Positions 11,814-59,860 of a DNA stretch of 64,000 nt are shown one piece after another. Positions within the stretch are counted from its first letter, which is position 1; every line of letters begins with the position of its first letter. Both the position numbers and the translations under genes were made by a program. This DNA is from a virus: IMG/VR virus record IMGVR_UViG_3300045284_000214, positions 1 to 64,000 of that record, one strand, 5' to 3'. A model generated the notes under the pieces. That model was not told where the DNA came from. It searched no databases and saw only the letters and a program-made list of their open reading frames with translations.

Positions 11814-11823
11814 CGTTTAAACG
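11814..11823. promoter_or_regulatory. CGTTTAAACG palindrome upstream of 11841 gene
   Basis: A perfect 10-base palindrome 17 bases before the ATG at 11841, followed by AGGACG. It is one of five perfect copies in the window and lies at a gene border, as expected for an operator or a boundary/recombination sequence. Confidence 0.5.
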
Positions 11824-11840
11824 AGGACGCTAAGTTAAGC

Positions 11841-12281
11841 ATGGCCCTACCCGGTCTCGCATCCACGATGCCAGCGTCAGCCACTCCTCCCATGGCGGGC
11901 GCTGGTGGCGCTCCGCCGCAGAAGACCCCTCCCTTCGGTTCGTCACCCGCTGTGACCCCGAATGCGAATCAGGGCTTTCAGGTAGCCGGGATGATGAAGG
12001 TCGGTACCGCGCTGAAGATTCTGACCGGCGCATTGAACGATTACGGCCCCACCTCCGAGGAGGGCCAAGGAATTCTGAAGGCGCTTACGTCGCTTTCAAA
12101 ACTGGCCAAGCCGGGTTCTGTCAGCCCGGCGGGTGAAGCTAACCAGCTTCAGAAGGCTCAACTGCAGAACGCGCAGAACAGCTCTCTGATGGCTGCCACG
12201 AAGCAGGGAATGGACCAGCAGCAGGCTGGTGGCCCCGGAGGCGCTCCACCGCCTCCCTCGCCGCCGCCCGGTGTCGGTTAA
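11841..12281 (+). CDS. Pro/Ala/Gly-rich head-assembly-region protein
   Basis: The ATG at 11841 (MALPGLASTMPAS) is preferred over an upstream TTG at 11805, which lies over the CGTTTAAACG site. The 146-residue protein has disordered Pro/Gly-rich ends and a central helical part (MMKVGTALKILTGALNDYG, ALTSLSKLAKPG, ANQLQKAQLQNAQNSSLMA). Such proteins near the scaffold are often assembly factors or minor head proteins. No specific family recognised. Confidence 0.65.
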   Translation: MALPGLASTMPASATPPMAGAGGAPPQKTPPFGSSPAVTPNANQGFQVAGMMKVGTALKILTGALNDYGPTSEEGQGILKALTSLSKLAKPGSVSPAGEANQLQKAQLQNAQNSSLMAATKQGMDQQQAGGPGGAPPPPSPPPGVG

Positions 12282-12295
12282 CAAGGGAGAAGACA

Positions 12296-12463
12296 ATGGC
12301 TGTCGATATCTTCAAGAATTCCACGATGAAGCTGCCCAAGTCCGACAAGCAGATCGTGCGCGTAGACATGGAAGAGGACGAGCTTCAGGGCCGCAAGGAC
12401 CATCTTCCGAACCAGGAGAAGTCCGACATCCTGAGCATTTCCCACGTCACCAGCCGGAAGTGA
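12296..12463 (+). CDS. small hypothetical head-region protein, 55 aa
   Basis: A short gene with a strong AAGGGAGA Shine-Dalgarno and ATG at 12296, ending TGA at 12463, 3 bases before the next ATG. The product starts MAVDIFKNSTMKLPKSDKQI and is highly charged, with a KDHLPNQEKSDI stretch. Its tight packing between two real genes and good ribosome-binding site support it. It might be a scaffold-associated peptide; function unknown. Confidence 0.7.
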   Translation: MAVDIFKNSTMKLPKSDKQIVRVDMEEDELQGRKDHLPNQEKSDILSISHVTSRK

Positions 12464-12466
12464 TCC

Positions 12467-13063
12467 ATGCCCGTCGAGGTCGATGAACACCAGTTAGCCA
12501 ATCTTCAGAACACCGCGAAGATTGTGCAGGGGTTGCTTCAGAACCCGAAGACCCGTGGCAAGGTGCTGGCCGCCTACAAGGAGGCCCATCCCAACGCCCA
12601 CGTTCCCGAGATCGACTCCCAGGTTCCGGTGATGCAGCGCATCCAGGGCATCGAGAATGCCGTGGTGCAGTTCATCAACGAATCCAAGGCCCAGAACCAG
12701 CAGAAGGAAGTCGATCAGCAGATTTCCCGGCTCAAGGCCGACCAGGAGAAGGGTCGCAAGCTTCTGAAGGACAAGGGCTATACGCCAGAAGGCATCAAGG
12801 CTCTGGAAGAGTTCCGCGATACCAAGGGTCTTGTCGAATACGAGGATGCAGTTCGCCTCTACGAACTCGACAACCCTCCGCCCCAGGTCAACGATCCATC
12901 TGGCCTCGGCGGCCACAACTTCTTCGAAGCCATCAAGCACGAAGCCGACCAGAACGATTTCCACAAGCATCTATTCGAGACCCAAGGCAACAACGATGCC
13001 GTGGTGGAACGTGAAGCCATGAATGCGATCAGAGAACTCAGGGGCGCGGGTTCGCGTCGGTAA
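12467..13063 (+). CDS. probable scaffolding protein
   Basis: Directly precedes the major capsid gene. The 198-residue product is strongly helical and charged: AVVQFINESKAQNQQKEVDQ, ISRLKADQEKGRKLLKDKG and a C-terminal basic/helical end (REAMNAIRELRGAGSRR). Gln/Lys/Glu-rich coiled coil plus basic C-terminus is the usual look of phage scaffolds, which bind the coat protein and leave before DNA entry. The call is by position and composition rather than motif. Confidence 0.65.
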   Translation: MPVEVDEHQLANLQNTAKIVQGLLQNPKTRGKVLAAYKEAHPNAHVPEIDSQVPVMQRIQGIENAVVQFINESKAQNQQKEVDQQISRLKADQEKGRKLLKDKGYTPEGIKALEEFRDTKGLVEYEDAVRLYELDNPPPQVNDPSGLGGHNFFEAIKHEADQNDFHKHLFETQGNNDAVVEREAMNAIRELRGAGSRR

Positions 13064-13080
13064 CTAGGAGATAGACCATC

Positions 13081-25571: not shown

Positions 25572-28500
25572 ATGCTGATCTCGGTCAGAATGAAGACCCG
25601 TATGCAGGCTATGGCCACGATGTTCAGCAAGAGGTCGATGCTGGCACGCCACGGGTGCGCAGCGACATCGATTTCCTGAATCTGCCGGAAGGCAGCGACT
25701 ATCTTGGTCCGGATAACCGCAGGCGAACCAAGCACTATACCGTCACCAACGATGCCGACTTCATGCGGATACCGGAAGGCGCTCCGTACATCGGGCCTGA
25801 CGGGATTCCTCGCGACAAGCCCAATTATGGCGACATCGGATTCACTGCGCAGGCCATGCACGACATGGCCGTCACCCCGGAGGCCAAGACCGAGGCCCTG
25901 CGCCGCAGCTATGGCGACAAGGTCAAGGTAGACGAGGCCGGTCCTTATATTCAGGAGGATGACGGCACCATCCGCCGTCCCGGTGTCCGCAGCCTGAAGT
26001 CTGCCCTTGGCACCTCTGTTGCAGAAACCCTCCCGGCCATTGGCATGGTGGGCGGTGGTCTTCTGGGCGGTGGCCTTGGCGGTGTCGTTGGTACAGCCGC
26101 AGGCCCCCCGGGGACCGTGGCGGGGGCTCTTGCAGGCGGCACTGGCGGCGCTGTTGGCGGGGCCATGGCCGGTAGGCAGGCCAACAATGTCATCCTGAGC
26201 CTTCTGGGCATCCATCAGCCTGTCCTCGATCAACTCCACTCAATGGGCCAAGAGGGCCTCTATACGGCCGGTGGAGAGGTTGTGGGCCGTGGGGTGGGTA
26301 AACTGGCCCAATACGCCAAAGGCCCCTCCAAGGCAGGCACAGGGCTTCCTAATGACTTTACGGCTGGCCTCTCCGATGCTGAGACACCGGCCGCCACCAA
26401 AACCTACGCTACCCGCAAGCAGCAGATTGCGCAGGACCTCGGTGGCGTTCTGGAATCGATGGGAATTACTCCGGAGAAAGGCCCCTTCATTGGAATAACC
26501 CGCAAAGGGAAGGGTTCCGATGTCATCCCGAATGACTTTACGAGGGGGCTGGAAGACATCCCAGCGCCACCGGGCACCAAAATGCCCGATAGTAGCCTGG
26601 ATAATCCCAAGGGAGCCTTCGGAAGCTATGTCGAGCCTGAGGTGAAGAAACACGGCTACCCAACCCCAGGTGCCAGGGAGTTTTTGGGGGTCAATGACGA
26701 GGGCTTGGAGCGTATTGCTTCGGCACAAAAGTCTGGCTTCAAACCGGCTCCTTCCGTGGCCTTCCCGGAAGCTCCAATGCTGACCAAGATCGAGCAGTTC
26801 GATGCGGCATTCAATCCAGATGCTTCAGGGCAGGGACGCTTCGGTCAGTCCTTGCGCGAGGGCTATAACCGTATCGGCGAGAATATCATCACCGCCCCGG
26901 AAATTAAGGGCGTTGTCAAGGAGCCATTGACGTCATCCACCGAGGCGGTTTCCTACAAGGAGGCTGGCGAAAAGGCTGTTGTTAGTGCCAGAATCAAGAT
27001 GGCTCTGGAGGATATCAACCTGGAAGCTTCAATTGCCGAGGGGCCTGAGAGGTGGGCGCAAACCTATATTGATAATGTAGGCGCTGCCCGAAATATGGTT
27101 AAAACAGGGATTGACCAGCTCAGGCTTGATGCCGATGTTGCAATGCAAAACATAGCGACCGGATCAAGGCCGGTATTCCCCGGCCATCTTGTCAATGACA
27201 TTGCTGCTAGTTTCAAGAGTTATGGCACCGCAGTCAGGGCGCGGGCATCTGGCTATTATACCGAATGGGATAGGGTGGCCGGAGCCAAGCCAGTAGATGT
27301 TACCGGTCTGCAGGCTGATGCAGAGCGCTTCTTCGATGCCATGCCGGATGGACTTGCGGGGAAATATCCCCTTGAAGTCAGGCTGTTGAACAAGCTTGTT
27401 GCACCGGAGGGTGAAGAAGCCATCACCATGACTGCCGGTGAGCTACATCATCTCCGCTCATGGATGCGGCATGGAATCGACTATGACGACTTGGCTTCGG
27501 ACATGAGCCAAGGAGCCATGAAGCACTTTGAGGGTAAGGTTAACAGAGTAATACAAGCCCTTCCAGATTCAGACCTTTTGAACAAGGCTGATGCCTTTTA
27601 CAAAGACACCATCCCGTATCTCAACAATGAGATGATCCGGGCTACCATGAAGGCTATCAAGGGCGGCACGGGGATCGACCCGGAAGTAGCTGCCAACATC
27701 TTCTTCAAAGCAGGACGTGCCGAGGATGTGCGGGAAGCCCGCAAGGTGTTGGGACCGAATCTATGGAATGCGATTGAGGCTGCTCATGTTCAGTCTCTTG
27801 TAAACAAGTCCAAGGACTTCAATGGCGTAGATGCAGGTAAATTTTCTGATTATATCCTTAGCGACCACAGAGCAGGAATGCTTAATCTCGGCTATTCAGA
27901 ATCAAAGATGAAAGAATTGCTTCATATTGGCGAGGAAATTCAAAAGCTTGACGGCAAGATTTATATTGATGCATTACCTACAGACAGCATCCCCATGATC
28001 CTCAACAAGGCTAGGGCCAAGGCTCTTGAAGATGCCCGTGTTGCGGCTATTGACCCCCTGAAGGCCTTTGATGAGGCCGCCAAGAAAATGCGGTCCGATG
28101 CAGCGCTTCATCGGAAAAGCGGTCCTCTTAGCGCTCTCTTTGGGACTGATATGTCATTCAAGGGCGAGCAGGCCGCCAGAAACATCCTTAGCAATGAAGA
28201 CAGAATCATCGCCGCTTCCAACTATCTTGATAAGGCCACATTTGATTCTCTTCGTCAGGTGTTCGTCCGTGATTTCCTCCAGCGGGAATTCAAGGCCGTT
28301 GGTGGAATGCGAAAGGAATTGAGTGCAAATCCGCTGATGACGGAGAGGGTTCAGGCCCTCATGTTCCCCGGCAATACTCTCGACCAACTGAAGACCCTTG
28401 CAAAGAATGCGGAATTCCTGTCCGGGGCTGTCTCTATTGGCAATGGCGAGATGAGCGGTGGCTTGGCTGCTGGTGCACAGGTCATGAACCCGTCTCGCCA

Positions 28501-30550: not shown

Positions 30551-30560
30551 CGTTTAAACG
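30551..30560. promoter_or_regulatory. CGTTTAAACG palindrome 11 bases before holin-like gene
   Basis: Perfect palindrome followed at once by CAGGAG (Shine-Dalgarno) and ATG 12 bases beyond. Identical surroundings (GTTTAAACGCAGGAG) precede the holin at 33301. Confidence 0.6.
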
Positions 30561-30571: not shown

Positions 30572-30880
30572 ATGGCCTTAAGCCCGCACCCCCTGTTTTC
30601 CGTCGAGCCACTGGAAGAACTGGAACCGCGTCCTGCTCCCGCACCGCACCAGCCCGGTCAGGACAAGGCCGTAGGAGCCCTGATGCTGGGGCTCAAGGCT
30701 CTGTCCCAGGGGGCGGTCATAGCCGCAGGCCGGTTCACCAATCTGGCTATGGTGGCTAGCGTCTTCTGGCTGTTCATGTCGATCTCTAACCCAAGCCAGT
30801 TCCAGATCGTGTGGGGCGGAATGTATAGTGCATTTATACTGACAGCCCTGTATTTTATCAATCGAGGACGCCGCGCATGA
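30572..30880 (+). CDS. holin-like membrane protein, 102 aa
   Basis: A disordered acidic/Pro-rich N-terminus (PLEELEPRPAPAPHQPG) precedes an amphipathic stretch (ALMLGLKALSQGAVIAAGRF) and two hydrophobic segments (NLAMVASVFWLFMSIS; VWGGMYSAFILTALYFI) ending in NRGRRA. Small two-helix protein with basic tail right before the endolysin region fits a holin or antiholin. The gene directly follows the CGTTTAAACG site and overlaps the next ATG (ATGA). Confidence 0.55.
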   Translation: MALSPHPLFSVEPLEELEPRPAPAPHQPGQDKAVGALMLGLKALSQGAVIAAGRFTNLAMVASVFWLFMSISNPSQFQIVWGGMYSAFILTALYFINRGRRA

Positions 30881-32658: not shown

Positions 32659-33285
32659 ATGGCCTTCATAAACACCCTCTACAATCTATGGCCCAACGGC
32701 GATGAGAGAATGCCGGGGCTGCGGGATGGGATCGCAGCCTCAGCTCCGGAGGTCTTCGACCGCTTTCATATCGATACCCCTCTGCTGGTGGCCCACTACA
32801 TGGCGCAGGCGAGCCACGAATGTGGAGCCGGGCATGACATCATCGAGAACCTGAACTACTCGGCCACCCGCATGACCCAGGTCTGGCCATCTCGATTCCC
32901 TACAATAGCCAGTGCCAGACCCTACGAGCACAACCCGCAGGCCTTGGCTAACAAAGTATATAACGGTCGAATGCAGAACAGGATGGGGACCGACGACGGC
33001 TGGAATTATCGGGGTCGCGGTGCTTCCCAGACCACCGGTAGAGAAGGCTATCAGCGCGTGCAGGACGCCACCAAAATTCCAGTTTTGTCAAATCCAGATT
33101 TACTTATCGATCCCAAATACTTCCTGCTGTGCGGGGTTTCGGACTTCATCAACTGCGGCTGCCTGCCATTCGCCCAGCAAGACAACATCACCATGGTCAC
33201 AAAGCGGCTGAATGGTGGCCTGATCGGGCTTCCGGAGCGCAAGGTATGGTTGTCAAAGTGGAAGAAGGCCCTTAATGTGGTTTAA
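32659..33285 (+). CDS. GH19-type endolysin (chitinase/lysozyme fold)
   Basis: ATG starts 3 bases after the upstream stop. The motif MAQASHECGAGHDIIENLNY (residues 48-67) has the conserved HE with catalytic Glu54 and the second-acid region of GH19 hydrolases; YRGRGASQTTGREGYQ near 117 is the substrate-binding G-x-G motif of the same family. It would cut peptidoglycan glycan strands. There is no signal peptide, so it needs a holin. The TAA stop lies inside the GTTTAAAC site at 33280. Confidence 0.85.
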   Translation: MAFINTLYNLWPNGDERMPGLRDGIAASAPEVFDRFHIDTPLLVAHYMAQASHECGAGHDIIENLNYSATRMTQVWPSRFPTIASARPYEHNPQALANKVYNGRMQNRMGTDDGWNYRGRGASQTTGREGYQRVQDATKIPVLSNPDLLIDPKYFLLCGVSDFINCGCLPFAQQDNITMVTKRLNGGLIGLPERKVWLSKWKKALNVV

Positions 33286-33289
33286 ACGC
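33280..33289. promoter_or_regulatory. GTTTAAACGC site overlapping endolysin stop
   Basis: The word uses the endolysin stop codon and continues CAGGAGGG, the ribosome site of the TTG-start holin at 33301, so border sequence and translation signals are merged. Confidence 0.5.
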
Positions 33290-37746: not shown

Positions 37747-40401
37747 ATGCCAACGGTAGACATCGTAAGCCCCGGCGGAGCATTCAGCCCAGCCGCTGTT
37801 GGCGACGGCGTAACAGACGACGCTCCCGCTTTTCAGGCGTTCAATACCTGGGCGCAGGCCCAGGTAAGTCCGGTCACGCTTACTCTGGGAAGTGGTGCCA
37901 AGACCTTCCTGTTCGCCAGCCTAGACAGCAATGGTGAGCGCGCCAATTCCCCCGCATGGAAAGTGACGCAGCCGCTGACTGTTGTCGGCAATGGGCCGGC
38001 CACGTCGATTTTAAAAGGCGGGGTTGGTGCCGGGTTTGCGTTGGGTGCGATTGCCTCTATCAAATCCGGCAATGGACACTATGGATCGTCATCCATATTC
38101 ACTGCGCGGCTTGATTCTGTAGCGGCTGGCAGCACCCATATTACCTGCAAGACTATAGCCGACGCGGCGCTGTTTACGGTCAATACATGGGCCCTTCTCA
38201 CCGGCATTGATATGCAGGCTGGCGGCTTTCCCCCAAACGCCTACTTCTATGAGTATGTGTTTATAACCGGCGTAAACACAGGCACTGGCGTGATCACATT
38301 TTCCGCCGGAGTAACCAACGAATATCTGGACTCGTGGCCTAATTTTGATCCCGGCACTCCTGGCTCCGGCGCAGATGAGGGCGGTCCTGCTACACTTTAT
38401 GTGCTGGACTCGGCTTGGAATGTTGACGTTACCTATCAGTCGCTGGGCATAGACCAAAGCCTTAACACCGCTCAGACCTACGCCCCGGGCCGTAGCGTTC
38501 AGTATGTCGATGTCCAATGCTTTGACGCTTACGGCATGATCCCGACCAACAACGGGCTGATGTCGTTCACCGACTGCGATCTTACATCCTACCAGATGGA
38601 GGTCGATAAACTAAATGACACTATAATTTTTGACAATTCCGTAACCGGACAATTGCTATTCCAGAGCACAAACAACAACCTTGTAATCAGGAATGGATCA
38701 ACCGTCTCTCTCAACGGCTTGGCACGGTTCACAGAGATTACCGATTCAACTGTTACCGACACTGAATTTGGGGCGTTGTTCTTTGGAAGAGCGGATTCAT
38801 TCACTACCACCAACAGCACCTTTACAGGCAGCTTTGTTTTTGCATTTAATATCGACAGCGGCGGCATTACCGGTACCGGCATTCAAGTTGACTACACCAT
38901 GTCGGCAGGCGTTATCCGCATCCCCAGAGCTGGTCTGCAATACGGCTGTCACTGGGAAATACCGGGGACGCGCTGTTTTTTCCGAGGCCAAAATGGTGGT
39001 GGAATTAACATAGACGTTGGCCCAAGCTTTACTGTTACCTCGGTAACAAGTGACGCGACATATATCTATGTAACCACGGATTGGGCATATGGAGGTTTCC
39101 CGTCTTGGGCCAAGTCCATCATAGTACATCCGTGCCCAAGTGCCAGCTTTGCCTCCAACACAACCAGCACGATCCCGGATGTTGTTAACCTTAAAGCGGC
39201 AACCGCTGCTGGTTATCCAGCGGTTGGGACCTATACAACATACACAGTCAACGGGAGTGACTTAGGTTCTGATCCGGGTGGGCTGCCGGTGTTTCCTCCT
39301 GCGGTTTATGGGGAGCTGGTATCCTTCGTTGTCAACGTCTCGACGGCTTATACGGGCGTACATAATCCGCTGTTCTGGCATGCTGCTGCGGAGTTTGACA
39401 ATCAACCCACGCTAGATTCCAGTCTGGTCGTTCAATCCTATGGCCCACACATCGATCTTAGAACGTCTGGCACCCGAACCATTACTCTGACGACGGCCAA
39501 TCCACTAGGTTCCGACGCCAATCTTGTGCCCGGTGCGGGTACTCTTTGGTTCCCGCCATTTCAAAGCGGCGTCTGCGCCAACCAGAACATCACAGCGGAA
39601 TATGCCGGTAACCCAGCCGTAGGTCCCGTTGTAAACGTGACCATCATTACAGATCAGGGGTTTTCAGATATTACAGCATCGGCCTCGATCACCGAGGCTA
39701 ATGACACGGTTTCCGGTTTAGCTACAGTGGCAGTCCATGCCACGGTCTCAAAAACTGAAGCCAACGACACGGTTTCAGCAACGGTGGGCGATGTCATCAG
39801 GCTCTCAGCCAGCATCACTGAAGCTAACGACGCGGTCTCTTCTACGGTCACCCTAGCCATCCACCTTACGGCCTCGATAATCGAGGGCCGCGATACCGTA
39901 AGCTCCACCGCCATTGTGGGATCGTCAGCTGTCATCACGGCCACGGTCAATATTACCGAAGCCAGCGACAGGGTATCGGCTACCGCGCATGTGCCGGTTA
40001 CTCCCGTGACCTTCCACTTCGTCACCCGGGGAGAAGTTGTCTACGTCGATGCGGTTACCCAAATCACCACCGGATCGATTCCATCGGCCTCTTCAGGCTA
40101 CGGATTCTCTCTGCTTTTCAATCTGGGAATGGTGTTTCCTCCCCAGACGGAGTTCAAGGCCTCGCTGATCTCCCCCGGCGGGCTACAGAAAATCATTCTG
40201 GCCAGCAACGGACAGATCAAGCTGGGGAAGACCAGGGTCAAAACCGGTGGCTACAGACCAGTCAGTGGTGTCTGGGCCCCCTACGAATATGTCATTTACC
40301 AGACAGCCCCCGGCGACTTTAACACTCCCGGGGTGTGGAAGGTGGCCATGTCCAGCGGGGCTCCATTCTCGGGATATCAGGACGTTCGGATCGCTGCCTG
40401 A
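37747..40401 (+). CDS. tailspike with pectate-lyase-type beta helix plus repeat and knob
   Basis: The start MPTVDIVSPGGAFSPAAVGD is followed by AVGDGVTDDAPAFQAFNTWA (about residue 17), the hallmark N-terminus of phage beta-helix tailspikes of the pectate lyase superfamily, which usually degrade or bind host polysaccharides. The helix continues through FDAYGMIPTNNGLMSFTDCD. From about residue 640 come five TEAND-type 21-residue repeats and the same C-terminal domain as in the gene at 36790 (VTFHFVTRGEVVYVDAVTQI ... DVRIAA). 884 aa, AGGAG ribosome site. Confidence 0.75.
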   Translation: MPTVDIVSPGGAFSPAAVGDGVTDDAPAFQAFNTWAQAQVSPVTLTLGSGAKTFLFASLDSNGERANSPAWKVTQPLTVVGNGPATSILKGGVGAGFALGAIASIKSGNGHYGSSSIFTARLDSVAAGSTHITCKTIADAALFTVNTWALLTGIDMQAGGFPPNAYFYEYVFITGVNTGTGVITFSAGVTNEYLDSWPNFDPGTPGSGADEGGPATLYVLDSAWNVDVTYQSLGIDQSLNTAQTYAPGRSVQYVDVQCFDAYGMIPTNNGLMSFTDCDLTSYQMEVDKLNDTIIFDNSVTGQLLFQSTNNNLVIRNGSTVSLNGLARFTEITDSTVTDTEFGALFFGRADSFTTTNSTFTGSFVFAFNIDSGGITGTGIQVDYTMSAGVIRIPRAGLQYGCHWEIPGTRCFFRGQNGGGINIDVGPSFTVTSVTSDATYIYVTTDWAYGGFPSWAKSIIVHPCPSASFASNTTSTIPDVVNLKAATAAGYPAVGTYTTYTVNGSDLGSDPGGLPVFPPAVYGELVSFVVNVSTAYTGVHNPLFWHAAAEFDNQPTLDSSLVVQSYGPHIDLRTSGTRTITLTTANPLGSDANLVPGAGTLWFPPFQSGVCANQNITAEYAGNPAVGPVVNVTIITDQGFSDITASASITEANDTVSGLATVAVHATVSKTEANDTVSATVGDVIRLSASITEANDAVSSTVTLAIHLTASIIEGRDTVSSTAIVGSSAVITATVNITEASDRVSATAHVPVTPVTFHFVTRGEVVYVDAVTQITTGSIPSASSGYGFSLLFNLGMVFPPQTEFKASLISPGGLQKIILASNGQIKLGKTRVKTGGYRPVSGVWAPYEYVIYQTAPGDFNTPGVWKVAMSSGAPFSGYQDVRIAA
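39675..39990 (+). repeat. TEAND-type 21-residue repeats in tailspike
   Basis: About five repeats (ITEANDTVSG, KTEANDTVSA, ITEANDAVSS, IIEGRDTVSS, ITEASDRVSA) matching those of the gene at 36790, followed by the shared C-terminal knob. Confidence 0.8.
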
Positions 40402-41388: not shown

Positions 41389-41699
41389 AGCCTCGCTGCC
41401 GTTCTTTCATTGGCCTGTTCGGATTGCCATTCCGCAAATCTTGCACGGAGATACTCATGGCGAAACTTGGCATTGTCGGCCTCGCGGCGAGCTTCTACAA
41501 TCGAGGTGACATGGATTACCCACTCATTGGAAGCCTTGACCTTCATCTCAGCCTTGTTGACGGCCATTTCGCCAAGGGCCGCCATCATCCTGGATAGAAC
41601 GGACGACTTCAAGTCCTCAAGAAGGCTGGCCGCAGCGTTCTTGTCGCTGTAGTCCAGCCCAGCTTCATAAGCCTGTTCAGATAGAGGGCGGTTGTCCAT
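41385..41699 (-). CDS. helical hypothetical protein, 104 aa
   Basis: Leftward gene overlapping the micro-peptide start by 4 bases. The protein is charged and helical throughout (ASLLEDLKSSVLSRMMAALG; ARREADNAKFRHEYLRARFA), without a membrane segment, suggesting a coiled-coil oligomer. It lies after the SSB-like gene in the leftward operon, so a replication-accessory role is possible. No family recognised. Confidence 0.6.
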   Translation of the reverse strand: MDNRPLSEQAYEAGLDYSDKNAAASLLEDLKSSVLSRMMAALGEMAVNKAEMKVKASNEWVIHVTSIVEARREADNAKFRHEYLRARFAEWQSEQANERTAARL

Positions 41700-41708
41700 G
41701 ACGGTATC

Positions 41709-42173
41709 CTAGAAAGGTATCGAATCCCCGTCCATATCCGCATTCTTCACCGGCTTCCCGTCCTTGCCGAAGGTATCGTCCCACACCAGCCGGAAGATGT
41801 TGACCAGATTGGTGACATGCTCGGTATTAAGATCGACATGGCCACCGCTGATAGCCGCATTGAGGGCTCCGCAGACAAAAATGCGCTCGGCGGTCACGTC
41901 ATCGGTTTTGCCGTACTTGCCGTAGCTGGCGCCAGCGCCGTTGGCAGCTGCAGCGGGAGCATCCTCGACCTTCTTGACTGACGTGACGGTCTTGTAGGTC
42001 TGGCCGTTGAACTCGCGAGACGAAAACTCGATATCATAGGTCTTCTTCTGCTCGAACAGCGCCAGCATGTCAGGCTTGACGCCATAGAGCTGGTCGTCCT
42101 TGGTCTTGATGGTGCCGTTGGTCTTGCCGGGCTTGGGCTGGTTGATGAAGCTAACCTGGATGCGGGTGGTCAT
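41709..42173 (-). CDS. single-stranded DNA-binding protein-like
   Basis: An OB-fold-compatible protein of 154 residues: N-terminal strands (TRIQVSFINQPKPGKTNGTI; TYDIEFSSREFNGQTYKTVT), a Gly/Ala/Ser linker, and the acidic C-terminal tip DMDGDSIPF. The DxxIPF tip is the landmark of SSB proteins, through which they contact partner proteins. It would protect phage replication intermediates. Neighbouring genes (HNH, RusA, helicase elsewhere) fit a replication/recombination role. Confidence 0.75.
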   Translation of the reverse strand: MTTRIQVSFINQPKPGKTNGTIKTKDDQLYGVKPDMLALFEQKKTYDIEFSSREFNGQTYKTVTSVKKVEDAPAAAANGAGASYGKYGKTDDVTAERIFVCGALNAAISGGHVDLNTEHVTNLVNIFRLVWDDTFGKDGKPVKNADMDGDSIPF

Positions 42174-46650: not shown

Positions 46651-46881
46651 CTACCACCAAATTCCCCTCAGCAAATGCTTCGGAGTCGTGCCAAGTGCGG
46701 TAGCGTAGCGCTCAACTCCGTCTAGCAAGAGGCGCTGCCGCCCAATCTCGGTATTGGTAACGGATGCGCGTTTAAGCCCGACACGTTTGGCCAAGTCGTC
46801 TTGAGACATGCCAAGTGTCTCGCGGATCATACGAATGCGAACGCCGACCGAAATATGACAGGCTTCAATTGGGCTGTTCAT
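46651..46881 (-). CDS. XRE-family HTH repressor candidate
   Basis: ATG at 46881 (MNSPIEACHISVGVRIRMIR) is used; an upstream in-frame ATG at 46944 crosses the divergent promoter zone. The HTH is clear: TLGMSQDDLAKRVGLKRASV (about residues 22-41) followed by VTNTEIGRQRLLLDGVERYA. It resembles cI/Cro-type DNA-binding proteins that act as dimers on inverted repeats. It is divergent from the gene at 46961, forming a switch-like locus. Confidence 0.8.
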   Translation of the reverse strand: MNSPIEACHISVGVRIRMIRETLGMSQDDLAKRVGLKRASVTNTEIGRQRLLLDGVERYATALGTTPKHLLRGIWW

Positions 46882-46891
46882 TTGGCGACCT

Positions 46892-46925
46892 TTGCATTTC
46901 TGTTGATCTGGTGTTACCATACACC
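46892..46925. promoter_or_regulatory. divergent promoter/operator region of the switch
   Basis: Rightward: TTGCAT (46892) - 17 bases - TACCAT (46915). Leftward a TTGCGT-N17-TATGGT pair is readable in the same intergenic stretch. An inverted repeat GGTGT-TACCAT-ACACC (46910-46925) overlaps the rightward -10 region and is a plausible operator for the adjacent XRE protein. Elements are partial matches. Confidence 0.4.
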
Positions 46926-46960
46926 CGACGCAGACCCAACGCAAGGATTATTGTTGACCC

Positions 46961-47296
46961 ATGGCAAACAATGTGTCAAGACACCATGCAGAGCTACCCA
47001 CATCCCACCCCTTGCGGCAATGGAGAAAGACCCAACCAGACAAGGTAACGCTGGAGCAGATCGCACAGTCACTGGACTGCACCAGGGCTCACGTTTCGTT
47101 GATCGAGCACTACAAGCTGATGCCGGGGCTGCTGCTGGCATTCAAGCTCAATGTCCTGACCGGGGTACCGATGGAGAAATTCGTAGGCCCCACAGATTTC
47201 CTCAGAAAGGTTTCCAATGGTGTCAAGCTGGCCGATCACCATCAAGTACGCCGGGAAGCCGCTCGGCAAAGGAAGACCGCGCTTCGGCAAGGGTAG
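46961..47296 (+). CDS. HTH regulator, divergent partner (Cro-like or activator)
   Basis: A 111-residue protein with an HTH-like stretch TLEQIAQSLDCTRAHVSLIE (about residues 30-49). It is basic, with a QAARQRKTALRQG end, and its 3' 80 bases overlap the RusA gene. The divergent arrangement with 46651-46881 is a Cro/cI-like layout. The protein could be the antirepressor or early activator. No signature separates these roles. Confidence 0.6.
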   Translation: MANNVSRHHAELPTSHPLRQWRKTQPDKVTLEQIAQSLDCTRAHVSLIEHYKLMPGLLLAFKLNVLTGVPMEKFVGPTDFLRKVSNGVKLADHHQVRREAARQRKTALRQG

Positions 47297-47606
47297 GGTC
47301 TACACTCCCAAGAAAACCTCTGATTACGAGACTGGCTTGGCTTGGGCTGCCAAGACCGCGATGAAGGGACGGCTGCCGCTCAAGGGGCCTGTTGGGGTCG
47401 ATATAAAGCTAAGATTTAGCTCTAAGAAAGGCTTCTATCATATTGGAAAACCTGACGCTGACAACTGCATTAAGTGCTTGGACGCCCTCAATGGTATCGT
47501 TTTCGAGGATGATAGCCAGATTGCCTTCGGCACCTTCGTCAAGCTCTGTGGAGATGAGGAATATATCTCGGTCGATATCTGGCCGCTTCAGGAGCCAGCA
47601 TTATGA
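47217..47606 (+). CDS. rusA: RusA-type Holliday-junction resolvase
   Basis: The family N-terminus GKPLGKGRPRFGKGRVYTPK (residues 13-32) and the acidic core KPDADNCIKCLDALNGIVFE (about 78-97) are present. The catalytic aspartates are D80, D82 and D99 or D100 in the FEDDSQ segment. RusA cuts branched DNA during late replication or recombination. AGAAAGG 7 bases before the ATG confirms the start. It overlaps the upstream regulator by 80 bases, and the methyltransferase ATG follows in an ATGA overlap. Confidence 0.88.
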   Translation: MVSSWPITIKYAGKPLGKGRPRFGKGRVYTPKKTSDYETGLAWAAKTAMKGRLPLKGPVGVDIKLRFSSKKGFYHIGKPDADNCIKCLDALNGIVFEDDSQIAFGTFVKLCGDEEYISVDIWPLQEPAL

Positions 47607-48121
47607 GCCAGCGCCCCAGCGGCTATGAACGCAAACCGCACGACCTCTACGTCACCCCAGCGTGGGTCACCCAGGTTCTTATCCCGCACATCCCCTATCG
47701 CATCAGGACGATCTGGGAGCCTGCAGCAGGCGAAGGCAAGATGGTAAAAGTGCTGGAGGATGCAGGATATACGGTCAGAAGCTCAGACCTCACTTCAGGG
47801 GAAGACTTCCTCGATAACAAGACACATACGCTCTCCTATAACGAGGCCATCGTCACCAATCCACCCTACAGCCTCGCCAAAGAGTTCATCGAGTGCTCAC
47901 TGCAGCGAGCTGGCTTCGTGGCCATGCTGCTACGGGCTGACTATGACCACGCCAAGACGCGCCAGCATCTGTTCCTCGATACAAGGTTTGCCAAGAAGAT
48001 CATTCTGACCAAGCGAATCAGATGGTTCGAGGGCACCAAGGGTGGGCCTTCCTTCAACCATTGTTGGTTTCTCTGGGACACGGAGCACAAGGGGCCACCG
48101 GTTATTTCATATGGCCCTTGA
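47603..48121 (+). CDS. small N6-adenine-type DNA methyltransferase
   Basis: ATG overlaps RusA's stop. Motif I EPAAGEGKMVKVLEDAG (residues 39-55) binds AdoMet and the catalytic NPPY is at 86-89 in VTNPPYSLAKEF. At 172 aa it lacks an obvious target-recognition domain, so it may act as a stand-alone orphan methyltransferase or with a partner. Together with the phage GcrA homologue it could influence methylation-dependent regulation. Target sequence unknown. Confidence 0.8.
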   Translation: MSQRPSGYERKPHDLYVTPAWVTQVLIPHIPYRIRTIWEPAAGEGKMVKVLEDAGYTVRSSDLTSGEDFLDNKTHTLSYNEAIVTNPPYSLAKEFIECSLQRAGFVAMLLRADYDHAKTRQHLFLDTRFAKKIILTKRIRWFEGTKGGPSFNHCWFLWDTEHKGPPVISYGP

Positions 48122-50807: not shown

Positions 50808-52268
50808 TTGAGAGAACTGAGGCAAGATCAGATCGAGTTATTGGTCGAGATAGAGGAGGCTATCGAGTCTGGGTTGCGGCGGTTAATGATCCAGGCTCCA
50901 TGCGGGTTTGGGAAAACACTGGTAGCTTCGACATTGCTCAAGAAATATTGCGATGAAGGCAAGCGGGTCATGTTTGTGGTCCCGGCTATCAGCTTAATCA
51001 GCCAGACAATTGAAGTATTCAACAGCGAGGGATTAGAAGATATTGGCGTAATGCAAGCTTATCACATGATGACTAACTGGGACATGCCAATACAAATTTG
51101 TAGTATTCAAACACTTTCAAGAAGAAATCTTCCAAAGTCCGATATCGTTATTATAGATGAAGCTCATATTTGGTTTAAATTCTTCGAAAAATGGATGCTG
51201 GACCCTGAATGGAAAGATATTCCATTTGTTGGACTTTCGGCAACGCCATGGGCGAAAGGTTTGGGCGCTTGGTACCAAAAACTGATCATAGGCAGCACCA
51301 TTGGCGAAGCTATAGACCAGGGCATTTTGTCTCGTTTCAAAGTATTCGCGCCCGCCCATCCAGATTTAACAAAGGTTAGGACTCTCGCTGGCGATTTTCA
51401 TGAAGGCGACCTCGAAAAGGTAATGAACCAAAAACGCCTTGTCGCGGATATTGTTAGCACATGGCTTTTACGAGCTAAAGACTTGCCAACACTTTGTTTT
51501 TGCGTGAACCGCGCTCACGCGAAACAGGTTCAAGAGCAATTTATTGCCGCTGGGATAAATGCTGGCTACCAAGATTCCTTTACTAGGGATGACGAGCGAA
51601 CAGCCATCAAGATCAAGTTCCACAACGGCGAAATGCCTGTCGTTTGCTCGGTAAATACAATGATTTTGGGCATCGACTGGAAAATCAAGTGTTTGATTTG
51701 GGCGTGCCCGACAAAATCCGAGATGAAGTACGTTCAGGGCACTGGTCGAGGGTTGAGAACAGATGAAGGCAAGGACGAGTGCCTTATCCTCGATCATTCG
51801 GACAACACATTGCGCCTCGGATTCGTGGATTCCATCCATCACGCAGAATTGAACACGGGAAAAAAACCTTTAGCTGCCTCGGTCAGTCCGATCCGCCTTC
51901 CCAAGGAATGCCCGCAATGTACTTTCCTGAAACCGCCCAAGACGCTGGAGTGCCCGAACTGCGGCTTTGCCACCAAGCCGGTGGTCGATGTGGTGGTCGA
52001 GAAGGGCGAACTAGTTGAGTTTACCAAGAGGGGAAAGCCAAAGGATTTGTTCGAGAAACCAGATACTTACGCCGGTCTTCTGTGGTACGGACAGCAGAAG
52101 AATTACAAGGCTGGCTGGGCATTCCATAAATATTTTGAGCTTTTTCAAGAATATCCTCAAGGACTTGGCGTGGTGCCGAAGCCACCAAGCACGGAATTGG
52201 CAAAATGGATCAAATCACGAACCATAGCTTGGGCACACTCCAAATACCGGACTCCGCTTCGCCCATAA
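50808..52268 (+). CDS. DEAH-box superfamily II helicase
   Basis: TTG at 50808 with GGGGAGGG just upstream is the likely start; the frame stays open upstream to 50676 but that part lies in the G-rich region. Walker A PCGFGKT (31-37), DEAH (117-120), SAT (144-146), a helicase C-terminal domain with QGTGRGLR near 314, and CPQC/CPNC zinc cysteines near 370-390. SSL2-type helicases unwind DNA in phage replication or repair. The first half has GC down to 32-45% in sampled lines, much lower than the neighbours, suggesting horizontal acquisition. Confidence 0.88.
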   Translation: MRELRQDQIELLVEIEEAIESGLRRLMIQAPCGFGKTLVASTLLKKYCDEGKRVMFVVPAISLISQTIEVFNSEGLEDIGVMQAYHMMTNWDMPIQICSIQTLSRRNLPKSDIVIIDEAHIWFKFFEKWMLDPEWKDIPFVGLSATPWAKGLGAWYQKLIIGSTIGEAIDQGILSRFKVFAPAHPDLTKVRTLAGDFHEGDLEKVMNQKRLVADIVSTWLLRAKDLPTLCFCVNRAHAKQVQEQFIAAGINAGYQDSFTRDDERTAIKIKFHNGEMPVVCSVNTMILGIDWKIKCLIWACPTKSEMKYVQGTGRGLRTDEGKDECLILDHSDNTLRLGFVDSIHHAELNTGKKPLAASVSPIRLPKECPQCTFLKPPKTLECPNCGFATKPVVDVVVEKGELVEFTKRGKPKDLFEKPDTYAGLLWYGQQKNYKAGWAFHKYFELFQEYPQGLGVVPKPPSTELAKWIKSRTIAWAHSKYRTPLRP

Positions 52269-53068
52269 GCGACCATCCCTGCCCCCATTGCGGACCCGAC
52301 TGTCGGTCCACATTCAATCGCAGGCGTAAGACCTTGCGAATATGGAACAATGATGGTTTCATCAGCTGGAGATGTGCCCGCTGCGATACCACGGGATGGA
52401 AGAAGGGTAACAAGACGGACCATACCGCGCCCAGTCGGCAGCAGCCACAGCAGCCTCCCCAGAGCCGTACAGGAGCCGCCCGTGCGCTTTGGGCTGCGTC
52501 CTTGCCTCTGAAGGGCAGCCTCGCGGAAACCTACCTGCGGAGCCGCCAGTGCTTCCTGGATACCCCCAACCTTCGATTTCTCGAAGGCGGCAAGCATCCT
52601 CCAGCCATGATCGGGCGCTTTAGCTCCGGCGCGGTACATCTTACTCGTTTAAACGCAGACGGAACCGGGAAGGCAGGCACGGAGAACGATAAGCTGATGT
52701 TCGGGCGGGTTGCGAGTTCTCCACTAGTCATCGGCCACGCAGGGCCAGACACGCCGCTGATCATCTGCGAGGGAATCGAGGATGGATTGTCGATGGTGTT
52801 GGCTACCGGCTTCTTGGTCTGGGTGGCTGGTTCGGCCTCGATGATGCCGAAGCTAATTCCGGCGTCCACGACACATCGAACGGTGTACTTTGCGCTCGAT
52901 CTCGACAAGGCAGGCTTCCGCGCCTATCGCAGGGCACTGGAGCTGCGGACGGATATTCATTCCGTGAGATTTCCGAAACAACTTGACGCCAACGCCATCA
53001 TTCGACAACCTGAGGGCACCAAACGCTTGAGAGAATTAGTGCTTCGCCGCCCCACCTTTCACAGGTGA
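52205..53068 (+). CDS. zinc-binding TOPRIM primase-like protein
   Basis: Overlaps the helicase by 64 bases. Zinc site: CPHC (26-29) and CARC (57-60) with a short loop, as in DnaG-type primases. TOPRIM: LIICEGIEDGLSMVLATGF with catalytic Glu189, then ALDLDKAGFRAY with Asp-Leu-Asp 232-234. It lacks an obvious separate helicase domain, so the adjacent DEAH helicase may supply that. It probably primes phage DNA synthesis. Contains an in-frame CGTTTAAACG word (52646). Confidence 0.82.
   Translation: MDQITNHSLGTLQIPDSASPISDHPCPHCGPDCRSTFNRRRKTLRIWNNDGFISWRCARCDTTGWKKGNKTDHTAPSRQQPQQPPQSRTGAARALWAASLPLKGSLAETYLRSRQCFLDTPNLRFLEGGKHPPAMIGRFSSGAVHLTRLNADGTGKAGTENDKLMFGRVASSPLVIGHAGPDTPLIICEGIEDGLSMVLATGFLVWVAGSASMMPKLIPASTTHRTVYFALDLDKAGFRAYRRALELRTDIHSVRFPKQLDANAIIRQPEGTKRLRELVLRRPTFHR
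52646..52655. repeat. CGTTTAAACG copy inside TOPRIM gene
   Basis: Perfect palindrome in frame as Arg-Leu-Asn(-Ala), followed by CAGACGG. Confidence 0.4.
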
Positions 53069-55591: not shown

Positions 55592-55807
55592 CTAGCGCCA
55601 GTGCAGCGTAGGAAAGGCCGTTCCCGCCCCTAGCAGCCCTGCTAGGGCGTTTATGATGACAAGGGCTATGATCACCACCAAGATGACGTTGACCACCTGT
55701 ACAATGGGCGCAGGCAGGGGAATCAGCCCTATCAATTGCATGAATGCCCAGTAAATAACGCCCACGATTAATAGCGTTATCAGCAAACCAATAAGCGAGC
55801 CGACCAT
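55592..55807 (-). CDS. small two-TM protein, 71 aa
   Basis: Leftward gene. Two hydrophobic helices (LIGLLITLLIVGVIYWAFMQ; QVVNVILVVIIALVIINALA) separated by IPLPAP. The overall pattern resembles small 'Thivi_2564-type' membrane proteins seen in alphaproteobacteria. The ribosome site GGAGG is sequestered in a hairpin (see 55816). May modulate the envelope. Function unknown. Confidence 0.65.
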   Translation of the reverse strand: MVGSLIGLLITLLIVGVIYWAFMQLIGLIPLPAPIVQVVNVILVVIIALVIINALAGLLGAGTAFPTLHWR

Positions 55808-55838: not shown

Positions 55839-55848
55839 CGTTTAAACA
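55839..55848. promoter_or_regulatory. CGTTTAAACA site, left of promoter
   Basis: Lies 27 bases before the -35 at 55876 and in the 5' leader of the leftward gene. With the perfect copy at 55934 it brackets the promoter. Confidence 0.5.
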
Positions 55849-55875: not shown

Positions 55876-55904
55876 TTGACAACGGCCCATATGTTAGCTT
55901 ATGT
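55876..55904 (+). promoter_or_regulatory. promoter TTGACA-N17-TTATGT
   Basis: A -35 TTGACA at 55876 and TTATGT at 55899. A tandem direct repeat ATGTTAGCTT twice (55891-55910) overlaps the -10 region. Expected to drive the gene at 55960. Flanked by CGTTTAAACA/CGTTTAAACG sites. Confidence 0.65.
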
Positions 55905-55933
55905 TAGCTTGCGGAACCCTAAACCGCTATCCT

Positions 55934-55943
55934 CGTTTAAACG
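55934..55943. promoter_or_regulatory. CGTTTAAACG site, right of promoter
   Basis: Perfect palindrome about 25 bases after the predicted transcript start, followed by CAGAAAGGGA ribosome site and ATG at 55960. Confidence 0.55.
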
Positions 55944-57416: not shown

Positions 57417-58061
57417 CTAGCCTTTCTTGAAAGTTTGCCCGCACGAAATATGCGTAGCCTCAAACGTGTCAGACGATACGCGTACCTTGCACCCGCACCC
57501 GCAGACATACAGACGCAAGCGGGAACCACTACCTTTACCACGCGATGTGCCGCCGCGCGTACCAATCCCCGCGCCACATGGGCGAGGTGCAGCTCCGCCA
57601 GCCATATTGCCCAAGGCTGTTACGGGTTGCCCCTCGGTAGGCTTAGGGAGGGCAGCTATGGCTGTTCTGAGATCGGGCGCAAACATGGCGAGCCGGTATT
57701 CCGTCCCCGCCGCCTTGATGCTACGCAAACCTAGGGCAGCACATGCGGCGTGCCATGGCTTCTTGTGGCCCGCTGCAAAGCCAGCTGCCACGTGGCCTAG
57801 TTCGTGAACCACGGTCCCGGCGATCTGGACCCATGATTCCTGGTTAAAGGCGCTAATCTCCACAAAGGGAACCGGCTGATCCTTATCCCCGTTGCGCTTC
57901 CATTTAGAGAAATAAGTAACGCCGCGAACGCCGCTTTCGCCCGCGCCATACACAAGCTTGATGGAATCGAGTTGGGATCGGATATCACCGGCCGGGATGC
58001 GAGCAATGGCGAGGGCAGCAACGGCGCTCACAAAGGATTCATGGGTGACAATGGCTGGCAT
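57417..58061 (-). CDS. SprT-like zinc metalloprotease domain protein
   Basis: HELGH at residues 86-90 inside AGTVVHELGHVAAGFAAGHK is the Zn-peptidase signature used by SprT/Spartan-type proteins, with a later SprT-type C-terminal zinc ribbon (YVCGCGCKVRVSSDTFE) supplying cysteines. In cells, Spartan proteases cut DNA-protein crosslinks. A phage version might remove host proteins bound to DNA. It lacks a membrane anchor. 214 residues, normal size for SprT domain proteins. Confidence 0.8.
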   Translation of the reverse strand: MPAIVTHESFVSAVAALAIARIPAGDIRSQLDSIKLVYGAGESGVRGVTYFSKWKRNGDKDQPVPFVEISAFNQESWVQIAGTVVHELGHVAAGFAAGHKKPWHAACAALGLRSIKAAGTEYRLAMFAPDLRTAIAALPKPTEGQPVTALGNMAGGAAPRPCGAGIGTRGGTSRGKGSGSRLRLYVCGCGCKVRVSSDTFEATHISCGQTFKKG

Positions 58062-58065
58062 GGGA

Positions 58066-58660: not shown

Positions 58661-58686
58661 GACGTGCATTCCTTTCGGTTTAGGGG

Positions 58687-58923
58687 TTAGACGGTTTCAA
58701 TTTTGGTGACTGTGCAAGCATGATCGTTGAACAGGCCATTAATCGCCCGTTCTGCGGTGCTGTAATTCTTGCCACAGCCAAGATTTGATGGGCCATGGTC
58801 AATATCATCAGCATAGAATGTTTCATCATAATCCTGCGAGACCTTGACCGGCTTGCGGTCGAAGCAATAGGCCGGATGGGGATGGGTTGCGGTGACATAA
58901 TAAACGGTGCGGGATCGGGGCAT
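58687..58923 (-). CDS. small protein, 78 aa
   Basis: ATG at 58923 (MPRSRTVYYVTATHPHPAYC) with GAAAGG upstream. Contains DYDETFYADDIDHGPSNLG and CGKNYSTAERAINGLFNDH; beta strands then helix. No family recognised. First translated gene of the leftward block. Confidence 0.55.
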   Translation of the reverse strand: MPRSRTVYYVTATHPHPAYCFDRKPVKVSQDYDETFYADDIDHGPSNLGCGKNYSTAERAINGLFNDHACTVTKIETV

Positions 58924-59125
58924 TTGAGACCTTTCTTTTGGACGGAATACGGGCGGTTTGAGTGTTAGATCACTATTAGCTAACAGCATCAATCATTATC
59001 AGCGCTTAAACGATGAAAGGGCTAACTTTGGAAGATTATTCTCTCTTAACAATCTGGCATGGTTTATGCTACGCGCGCGCTAGTCCTCCGGCGCAAAATA
59101 CCGTGGTATCGAAGGGAACAATCTG

Positions 59126-59548
59126 CTAGGGTTTGAGCGCGTGATTTGCGGCGTCATCAGCTGCTTTCGCCTTCCGCGCTTTCGCTCCGGACAGGTGAGT
59201 TGACGGGTTCCGCTCCGGGCGTTTTGCGTGCTCCAATTCTGCCAGGACGGCAGCACCACTTTCAAGCCGGTTCCGGATAGTGGCGATCAGGATCAGTCTG
59301 ACACGTTCTGGCATTTCCCTTCGACCACTAAGCCAATGTTTCAGGCTGCCCACTGAGCACGTCAGCATAACCGTTAGAGAGGCATACAGACCGGGACTAT
59401 GGTCAAGGTAAGGGAAGAGCCAAACTACAGCCCGCCGCATCACGGGCCAGCGCAGGGGCTTAGGGGCTACGTTGGCAAGCTTGCGGCGTTGGTAGAGAAT
59501 ATGGCCCGCTTGCCTCTCGCGCTCGCGCTGGCGCGCATTTGGCTGCAC
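59126..59548 (-). CDS. putative HTH DNA-binding regulator, 140 aa
   Basis: GTG start with AAGGG 9 bases upstream. The segment TCSVGSLKHWLSGRREMPER (about residues 64-83) has the S-x-x-x-L-x-x-W-L-S-G-R turn of HTH repressors, then a long helix (VRLILIATIRNRLESGAAVL). N-terminal basic region (RERERQAGHILYQRRKLAN). A dyad GCTTTAGTGCTAAAGC (59593-59608) lies just upstream and is a plausible operator. A second switch-like locus. Confidence 0.6.
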   Translation of the reverse strand: MQPNARQRERERQAGHILYQRRKLANVAPKPLRWPVMRRAVVWLFPYLDHSPGLYASLTVMLTCSVGSLKHWLSGRREMPERVRLILIATIRNRLESGAAVLAELEHAKRPERNPSTHLSGAKARKAKAADDAANHALKP

Positions 59549-59592
59549 CGCGTTATCCCTTTATTCCGCTAACAGCTATCGCTTTGCTCAAT

Positions 59593-59608
59593 GCTTTAGT
59601 GCTAAAGC
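59593..59608. promoter_or_regulatory. inverted repeat GCTTTAGTGCTAAAGC
   Basis: Near-perfect 16-base palindrome (7-base arms) 45 bases upstream of the regulator gene (leftward) in a gap that also contains CGCTGT...ACAGCG (around 59615-59650). Probable operator. Confidence 0.45.
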
Positions 59609-59665
59609 CCGTCACGCTGTTACAACGCCCCTGTCGATAGCGTCACAGCGTATGGGCCTTGGGCT

Positions 59666-59860
59666 GTGACTAGGCTGGCAGCATGGCATAGGGCGTTTAA
59701 ACGCGCAAGGCAGATGGACCGCGTGGAAGTGTTTTTATCGGTACTAGCCCGGACACGCTCCCCAAAAATAATTAGCCATGGCCCCTCCCTCCAGCCTGAC
59801 CTCCCTGCCTATGTGGCTTGTAGGCTCCTCTGGAGCCGTCTACGACGATTTGATCGATGA
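59666..59860 (+). CDS. possible truncated paralogue of HNH gene N-terminus
   Basis: GTG start; first ~25 residues (MTRLAAWHRAFKRARQMDRV) match the spacing of the next gene's MSKDRLKEWHRAWLAHRIDR: W-H-R-A and M/I-D-R-x-E. After that the peptide has no HNH motif. It contains the CGTTTAAACG palindrome at 59694-59703 (Ala-Phe-Lys-Arg), so a regulatory function may also apply. Low-confidence gene. Confidence 0.35.
   Translation: MTRLAAWHRAFKRARQMDRVEVFLSVLARTRSPKIISHGPSLQPDLPAYVACRLLWSRLRRFDR
59694..59703. promoter_or_regulatory. CGTTTAAACG site
   Basis: Perfect palindrome, inside a doubtful ORF (59666-59860), upstream of the HNH gene at 59948. Confidence 0.4.

Follow-up and report, generated by a model that had tools for sequence, protein, structure and literature searches.

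Why does one short palindrome recur across this phage genome, and which protein reads it? An earlier note on the 64,000-nucleotide stretch analysed here (the window; positions 1 to 64,000 of record IMGVR_UViG_3300045284_000214) listed eight copies of the word GTTTAAAC where fewer than one was expected. It proposed an operator or stoperator network, or alternatively a boundary used for module exchange. The eight copies are where the note placed them, at 9954, 11815, 30552, 33280, 52647, 55840, 55935 and 59695. We compute an expectation of 0.32, and none of 100 dinucleotide shuffles reaches eight. Under an order-3 Markov model, GTTTAAAC and GTTTAAACG are the most over-represented 8-mer and 9-mer of the window. 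The full form CGTTTAAACG occurs five times, again as claimed (11814, 30551, 52646, 55934 and 59694). The entire record (65,061 bases) holds the same five and no copy of the reversed word. With one mismatch tolerated in CGTTTAAACG, the window has 11 sites against 1.0 expected. The consensus is approximately YGTKTAMACR, its conserved core is a palindrome of 8 to 10 bp, and GTGTAAAC is a one-letter variant. The word in the window has no RNA-family match in Rfam.

Six of the eight copies of GTTTAAAC lie in the 7.6% of the window that is non-coding by a hand-picked gene list, on which this count depends (binomial P = 4.6e-6). A mechanical list of longest ORFs leaves two of eight non-coding against 0.8 expected, a low count because spurious ORFs cover the 5′ gaps. 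One genic copy (9954..9961) falls within the gene in the portal position (9382-11133), which is conserved in capsid relatives, and another (52646..52655) within a primase-like gene (52205-53068). The intergenic copy at 11814..11823 sits about 23 nt 5′ of the ATG at 11847, the start of a gene upstream of the head genes. Three copies lead into ribosome sites, as previously described. At 30551..30560, also intergenic, TAGTCT (−10-like by eye) stands before the word and CAGGAG-ATG after it, opening gene 30572-30880. At 33279..33288, at the end of the endolysin gene, GGTTTAAACG is preceded by TTGTCA-17-TAATGT, a promoter by eye, and followed by CAGGAGG-TTG and gene 33301-33651. At 55934..55943 the word is preceded by TATCCT, noted by eye, and an ATG at 55960 lies 16 nt further on. 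In the neighbouring divergent gap, CGTTTAAACA (55839..55848) lies about 32 nt 5′ of a minus-strand gene (55592-55807), with TAGTGT directly upstream on the minus strand, again by eye. The copy at 59694..59703 occupies a gap with no convincing gene. The degenerate minus-strand copy reported earlier lies at 59003..59012 (CGCTTAAACG on the plus strand, CGTTTAAGCG on the minus strand, one mismatch), 5′ of a minus-strand block running from 58923 to 57162 that includes an sprT-like gene.

The word does not follow the virion genes. Among 80 phages with the window's capsid gene, GTTTAAAC is present in 4 and absent from 76, so the structural module is not the explanation. Frequencies are thus far from equal in related genomes, most capsid relatives having zero copies, and we rejected the word as a property of the phage family. 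Nor does each relative have a private word: nine complete relatives lack a comparable dispersed 8-mer, with weak candidates in G012 and G026. Unrelated environmental phages carry GTTTAAAC at up to 4.45 copies per kb. In these word-rich phages the majority of copies are intragenic and the word recurs without common flanks, which speaks against the proposed module-exchange boundary. Because most copies in the dense phages are intragenic, a simple promoter operator does not account for them.

What unrelated word-rich environmental phages have in common is a SprT-like zinc-metallopeptidase/zinc-ribbon protein. A SprT profile matches 61 contigs, all word-rich, and none of 305 word-poor contigs. One scan of 120 loci found SprT in 16 of 25 rich and 0 of 95 poor loci (Fisher 7e-14); contigs overlap (L283 lies within G093, L293 within G094, L418 within G085) and many are kin, so this P is nominal and the contig counts are non-independent. 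The SprT searches of W01-W04 covered parts of those records. Forty-two word-rich contigs lack SprT, mostly short loci, although G099 (32.6 kb) and G116 (23.5 kb) are long. A sample of 41 records drawn by capsid or portal kinship, among them L179 and L182, whose richness was known beforehand, and L191, for which one copy was known, gave SprT in three, all word-rich: G025 (6 copies and 17 variants), G104 (38) and G115 (25). The other 38 have 0 to 6 copies, except the fragment G116 with 11. Several copies of GTTTACAC in G025 encode Val-Tyr-Thr, so codon choice may account for some of the copies there; the occurrence of GTGTAAAC in six other SprT phages speaks against coding as the cause. When the proteins of 16 representative word-bearing genomes were clustered, SprT was the most widely shared family, in a clustering that missed divergent small proteins. 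Two other candidate partners failed. The window's methyltransferase (47603-48121) is not common to word-rich phages, and the 11133-11774 protein is shared among them with Persinger only.

We examined 17 named phages with SprT. Sixteen were picked solely by SprT homology: 15 for host diversity out of 163 SprT matches, 60 of them listed, and one from a separate homology search. Persinger had entered earlier through homology to the 11133-11774 protein. Enrichment for GTTTAAAC or GTGTAAAC is seen in 14 of the 17. Copies of GTTTAAAC (expected in brackets) number 17 in R5C (0.52), 16 in Pan1 (0.20), 9 in ctDrO704 (0.42), 7 in Mica (0.12), 7 in Arya (0.79), 5 in ECO1230-10 (0.70), 4 in Mano (0.13) and 4 in Persinger (0.09). 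GTGTAAAC is the top 8-mer of UtzChips (23; 0.34), Zeta1847 (22; 0.57), Marky (35; 1.25), Phives (21; 0.49), Emotion (17; 0.30) and 4A (13; 0.65). Dismas, Epa5 and FP1 have neither form. The word also stands in front of sprT itself. Within 100 nt upstream of the gene it occurs in 11 of 15 named phages against 0.34 expected, 4A and Epa5 being excluded as their records lack an sprT annotation. In several of these promoters it lies, by eye, just 3′ of a −10-like hexamer. In Zeta1847 and R5C no site precedes the annotated sprT start by 100 nt or less, and the window's sprT has no exact site directly before it.

The window's sprT-like gene (57417-58061, minus strand), the proposed DNA-binding partner of the word, encodes a HELGH...GH zincin motif (HExxH...GH; HELGHVAAGFAAGH) and a C-terminal Cys-rich ribbon. 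Its product matches SprT-family profiles (E 4.8e-5 and 1.1e-6), is assigned to phrog_6361, and is 43.5% identical to the 'sprT-like family protein' of ctDrO704 (E 6e-28). It is divergent, with 15-23% identity to the other SprTs in our alignment. A PDB sequence search found no relative. The predicted structure has a mean pLDDT of 71, and Foldseek against the PDB gave nothing significant, the best SprT-like match being 6mdw (E 2.3, probability 0.21). Every protein in the alignment keeps a C-terminal Arg and two Cys. By contrast, 10 of the 29 SprTs, among them those of very dense phages, have lost HExxH, which is intact in many members.

We consider it probable that GTTTAAAC is the operator of the SprT-like protein, which would control its own and other promoters. 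The presence of the word in many unrelated SprT phages, usually in the sprT promoter, suggests a widespread and undescribed DNA-binding regulator. The phage-encoded protein would bind GTTTAAAC or GTGTAAAC through its conserved C-terminal Arg/zinc-ribbon region, with a dimer probably occupying the palindrome. Binding at or near transcription start sites would repress or tune the sprT promoter along with further promoters of the phage. Putative targets in the window, with sites just 3′ of promoter-like sequences, are the head block (11847), a tail/host-interaction block (30572), the block that follows the endolysin gene (33301) and small early genes (55592 on the minus strand, 55960 on the plus strand, and the minus-strand block from 58923 with sprT). 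Other phages may have expanded the system to tens of sites across the early region or the whole genome. The shape of the network first proposed thus holds, with dispersed palindromes, an intergenic bias, sites 3′ of promoter-like sequences and 11 of 15 sprT promoters; the XRE protein proposed as its binder is not supported. More tentatively, and with rather less confidence, phage SprT-like proteins may form a very widespread and hitherto unnoticed class of DNA-binding regulators with sequence specificity, which arose from DNA-associated metallopeptidases and in some lineages are no longer proteases. They would share a near-universal palindrome (GTKTAMAC) in phages of proteobacteria, actinobacteria and cyanobacteria, and in some phages would cover the early region at intervals of about 225 bp, forming a layer of control akin to chromatin.

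The word could instead be the operator of another phage regulator, with SprT a member of the regulon or a protease that cleaves that regulator, as ImmA cuts ImmR. Intact HExxH is common among SprTs, HTH or DNA-binding genes adjoin sprT in UtzChips, Zeta1847, Phives and Dismas, and two HTH_3 genes are present in the window (60792-60950 and 46678-46836). We still think this unlikely. The best XRE gene of the window (60765-60974) is absent from the other word-rich sequences tested, where the SprT-like gene is shared instead. No family was as widely shared as SprT in the 16 clustered genomes, divergent small proteins aside, and 10 of 29 SprTs are without the protease motif. An unchanging binder is also needed for a word that stays the same from cyanophage Pan1 to coliphage ECO1230-10.

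A less probable reading keeps SprT as the binder and gives the sites a role in genome maintenance (DNA-protein-crosslink repair, nucleoid-like organisation, replication or recombination), with the site in the sprT promoter serving feedback only. Passages of PMC5127644 describe SPRTN as a DNA-dependent protease that resolves DNA-protein crosslinks, which favours this reading. Several phages carry dense, mostly intragenic sites, and in R5C and Pan1 the sites span the whole genome. Spacing is more even than random in G097, G098 and weakly in G088; it is irregular in most genomes tested, so we rejected regular spacing as a general rule. The window's strong intergenic bias, the dispensable protease motif and the site-free late structural genes of L417 and L422 all weigh against maintenance.

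We had at first favoured a host-driven iterated palindrome like HIP1, written into phages through a host bias in mutation or methylation. The word does reach about 1 per kb, lies in coding DNA in several frames and is missing from near structural kin. Site localisation and the SprT link now make this very unlikely: the word tracks sprT among phages whose hosts are unrelated, occupies only a portion of some genomes, and is lacking in Streptomyces phage Immanuel3, taken as without SprT. The Verrucomicrobia MAG with the one capsid match shows no enrichment (34 copies, against 131 of the reversed word), and we found no host genome for the word. A translation-start element or module boundary, for which the three window copies running into ribosome sites and many L318 copies exactly between Shine-Dalgarno and ATG could be cited, is the most improbable of all, the word being palindromic, on both strands, mostly intragenic and without shared flanks.

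Among the matches listed in the open-licence PMC literature, we recognised nothing linking the word to phages or SprT. In many phages the only annotation given to SprT-like genes is 'protease' or 'transcription elongation protein'. Should their products be site-specific DNA binders whose 8-bp operator can be recognised, hundreds of phage regulons could be read off the sequence and a conserved phage gene would gain a testable function. It would also be an unexpected turn of evolution for a metallopeptidase fold to serve as a DNA-binding regulator and, in some lineages, to do so with its catalytic motif gone. Cultured phages of Arthrobacter, Microbacterium, Streptomyces, Burkholderia, Enterobacter, E. 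coli and Pseudomonas have the system, which makes testing straightforward.

How does this system compare with known ones? Like SprT/SPRTN, most members have the HExxH zincin and a Cys-rich C-terminus, and named phages annotate them as 'SprT-like protease'; unlike SprT/SPRTN, many members in word-rich phages lack HExxH. The literature passages on SprT that we saw describe no sequence-specific DNA binding by a phage SprT, and those of PMC7824862 suggest host-protein cleavage for a jumbo-phage SprT. Cluster K mycobacteriophages encode a SprT relative too, and their start-associated sequences are likewise repeats near gene starts in non-structural regions, with no SprT link proposed in the passages of PMC3203893 concerned. 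As described there, those sequences are 13 nt, non-palindromic, in one orientation and just before the ATG, whereas our word is palindromic and occurs on both strands and in coding DNA too. HIP1 (GCGATCGC) of cyanobacteria, in passages of PMC4390886 a cellular genome feature associated with methyltransferases, is similarly an 8-bp palindrome at about 1 per kb. Unlike HIP1, the word tracks a phage gene and not the host, and the methyltransferases tested are not common to word-rich phages. The stoperators of mycobacteriophage L5 are bound by an HTH repressor; the window has a candidate XRE, not common to other word-rich phages. As with the stoperators of L5 and cluster A phages, many short sites are dispersed over the genome, above chance in the window (8 against 0.32), and a single DNA-binding protein of the phage is proposed to recognise them. 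Passages of PMC3203893 give stoperators a length of 13 bp and a role in regulating transcription. In contrast to those of L5, the sites described here are palindromes of 8 to 10 bp, occur in phages of many hosts and are linked to a SprT-like gene.

By an order-3 Markov model, the palindrome GTTTAAAC exceeds its expected count more strongly than any other 8-mer in the window. All eight copies listed in the earlier note were recovered (starts 9954, 11815, 30552, 33280, 52647, 55840, 55935, and 59695). The shuffle count it proposed gave 0.32 copies expected, and none of 100 dinucleotide shuffles contained eight. The full form, CGTTTAAACG, occurs at 11 sites when up to one mismatch is allowed, against 1.0 expected. 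By a hand-picked gene list, six of the eight copies of GTTTAAAC are intergenic, with non-coding DNA making up 7.6% of the window (P = 4.6e-6). A mechanical ORF list leaves only two of eight outside genes, because spurious ORFs cover the gaps. By eye, -10-like hexamers directly precede several sites: TTGTCA-17-TAATGT at 33280, TATCCT at 55935, TAGTGT at 55840 (minus strand), and TAGTCT at 30552. This would place the sites at transcription starts or immediately beyond them, ahead of ribosome sites.

The window comes from the record of an uncultured phage, 65,061 bases long, and spans most of it. Among the IMG/VR matches listed, 80 are relatives of the window's capsid gene, mostly at 60-68% identity; the named phage collection has no close relative. 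Ten relatives were compared; they have the structural half in common with the window and almost nothing of the replication/regulation half (about 33-64 kb). GTTTAAAC is not a family trait, being found in 4 of the 80 records of listed capsid relatives. Only one of the 80, the environmental record G025, has many copies (6 GTTTAAAC and 17 GTGTAAAC/GTTTACAC, the latter its top 8-mer). Several other features of the window were recorded. Aminotransferase and nucleotide-sugar epimerase genes at 3486-5883, possibly for sugar modification, are best shared, among relatives, with G001. Two adjacent large genes carry 63-nt coding repeats (36901-37328 and 39670-39974). The protein encoded at 11133-11774 was not found in the capsid relatives compared and is 55% identical to a protein of Pseudomonas phage Persinger, whose gene adjoins a ParB-like gene with GTTTAAAC at its start.

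The word also occurs in unrelated phages. Scanning viral contigs for CGTTTAAACGCAGGAG returned 42 stretches, most of them one conserved coding stretch common to similar sequences. Some came from phages dense in GTTTAAAC (for example 43 copies in 56 kb, 37 in 37 kb, and 37 in 46 kb), where the reversed word occurs 0-2 times. In most of these phages the most clearly enriched one-mismatch neighbor is GTGTAAAC, with Y...R flanks, the same variant as in G025. Further scans used GGAGGTTTAAACATG (at least 120 loci) and three spaced copies, the second of which added 53 loci, every one enriched, at densities of up to 4.45 copies per kb. In two contigs, L417 and L422, the early region is full of sites, with none in terminase, portal, and following genes; in other word-rich contigs the sites are spread over the whole contig. 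Intergenic clusters of five GTTTAAAC copies lie in G085 (41691-41975, within 285 nt) and G086 (25706-25896, within 190 nt), each possibly a replication or packaging locus.

Richness in the word follows the presence of sprT. Of the 47 contigs matched by a SprT-like protein of contig G088 (zincin plus Cys-rich C-terminus), nearly all were already known for their richness in the word. When contigs were sorted by a fixed rule into word-rich and word-poor, the 61 contigs matched by an iterated profile were all in the word-rich class, with no match among 305 word-poor contigs. The profile found no match in 42 word-rich contigs, mostly short loci, some of which belong to records that do carry sprT. 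We also used a kinship sample not chosen for the word, 41 records taken by capsid or portal (two already known to be rich and another known to have one copy). Three carry SprT, and all three are rich: G025, G104 (38 copies), and G115 (25 copies). The other 38 have at most six copies each, except for G116, a fragment closely related to a rich phage, which has 11 (Fisher 4e-4). In the window, the sprT-like gene lies at 57417-58061 on the minus strand (HELGH...GH and a profile match). Its product is divergent, the weakest match of the third profile iteration (E 4.8e-5), and is 43.5% identical to the annotated "sprT-like family protein" of Manatee Spring phage ctDrO704; in that phage GTTTAAAC occurs nine times, once at 19 nt upstream of the sprT start.

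Named phages, 15 taken from 163 SprT-homology records plus ctDrO704 and Persinger, were then considered. Across these 17 SprT-bearing phages, GTTTAAAC is enriched in eight, moderately in Arya (7 vs 0.79) and ECO1230-10 (5 vs 0.70), and GTGTAAAC in six, being the top 8-mer in all six (UtzChips, Zeta1847, Marky, Phives, Emotion, and 4A). Dismas, Epa5, and FP1 have neither word. Epa5 (W19) is strongly enriched instead for CCCTGGGC (57 vs 9.7) and FP1 (W20) for AACCTAAG (6 vs 0.05), possibly alternative specificities. The two words together number 0-5 in phages taken as SprT-less: Immanuel3, ct2KA10, and four HTVC023P-like relatives, the last checked for SprT over part of their sequence. The 100 nt preceding the annotated sprT start contain a site in 11 of the 15 named phages examined, against 0.34 expected; the same stretch contains none in R5C, Zeta1847, Dismas, or FP1. 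By eye, the upstream site falls 6-8 nt past a -10-like hexamer in Arya, Mano, Mica, and ECO1230-10, and directly after one in Phives and Emotion.

A host factor is unlikely to bind the word, since hosts of word-bearing phages span proteobacteria, actinobacteria, and a cyanobacterium. The main rival is a second DNA-binding protein that SprT merely accompanies or cleaves, and HTH or DNA-binding genes do adjoin sprT in several actinophages. By simple clustering of 16 representative word-bearing genomes, the most widely shared family is SprT itself (9 of 16; runner-up, 5), and SprT is annotated or profile-detected in the rest. Across 29 aligned SprTs, an N-terminal Glu, a Pro, a C-terminal Arg, and two Cys are invariant. 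HExxH is missing in 10 of the 29, including phages at 2-4 sites per kb. This pattern fits conserved binding with dispensable proteolysis, and the sequence comparisons point to SprT as the likely binder. SprT-like proteins without HExxH occur in the very site-dense contigs L404, L419, L425, L431, L436, and L437. The structure model of the window SprT is moderate (mean pLDDT 71) and has no significant match in the PDB, its sole SprT match being weak (6mdw, E 2.3).

With SprT as binder, the protein would be produced from the leftward early block, which has the degenerate site 59003 upstream. It could then occupy promoter sites: 55840 and 55935 for small early genes, 11815 for the head block, and 30552 and 33280 for the tail and lysis-proximal blocks. 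The predicted outcome is negative autoregulation plus timing control. Copies within the portal (9954) and primase (52647) genes may be roadblocks or tolerated by-products. Separately, TATGTTAGCT is repeated across a TTGACA-18-TATGTT promoter (55890-55912) and a TTAGATCACTATTAGCTAA stretch lies at 58960-58990, close to the 59003 site; these elements are a possible second operator. At 46651-47296, an HTH_3 gene (46678-46836, minus, E 1e-9) faces a weaker HTH_3 match (47012-47182, plus), in what looks like a CI/Cro-type divergent switch.

Within open-licence PMC text, no link between GTTTAAAC and SprT was recognized. The operator/stoperator network suggested earlier holds in form, as a putative operator-like system, and not as stoperators, which are defined by a 13-bp sequence that the word does not match. 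HIP1 is alike in density; the difference is that the word tracks a phage gene, not a host. In cluster K mycobacteriophages, passages of one report (PMC3203893) describe start-associated repeats alongside a SprT relative, an arrangement that may parallel the pairing of the word with SprT.
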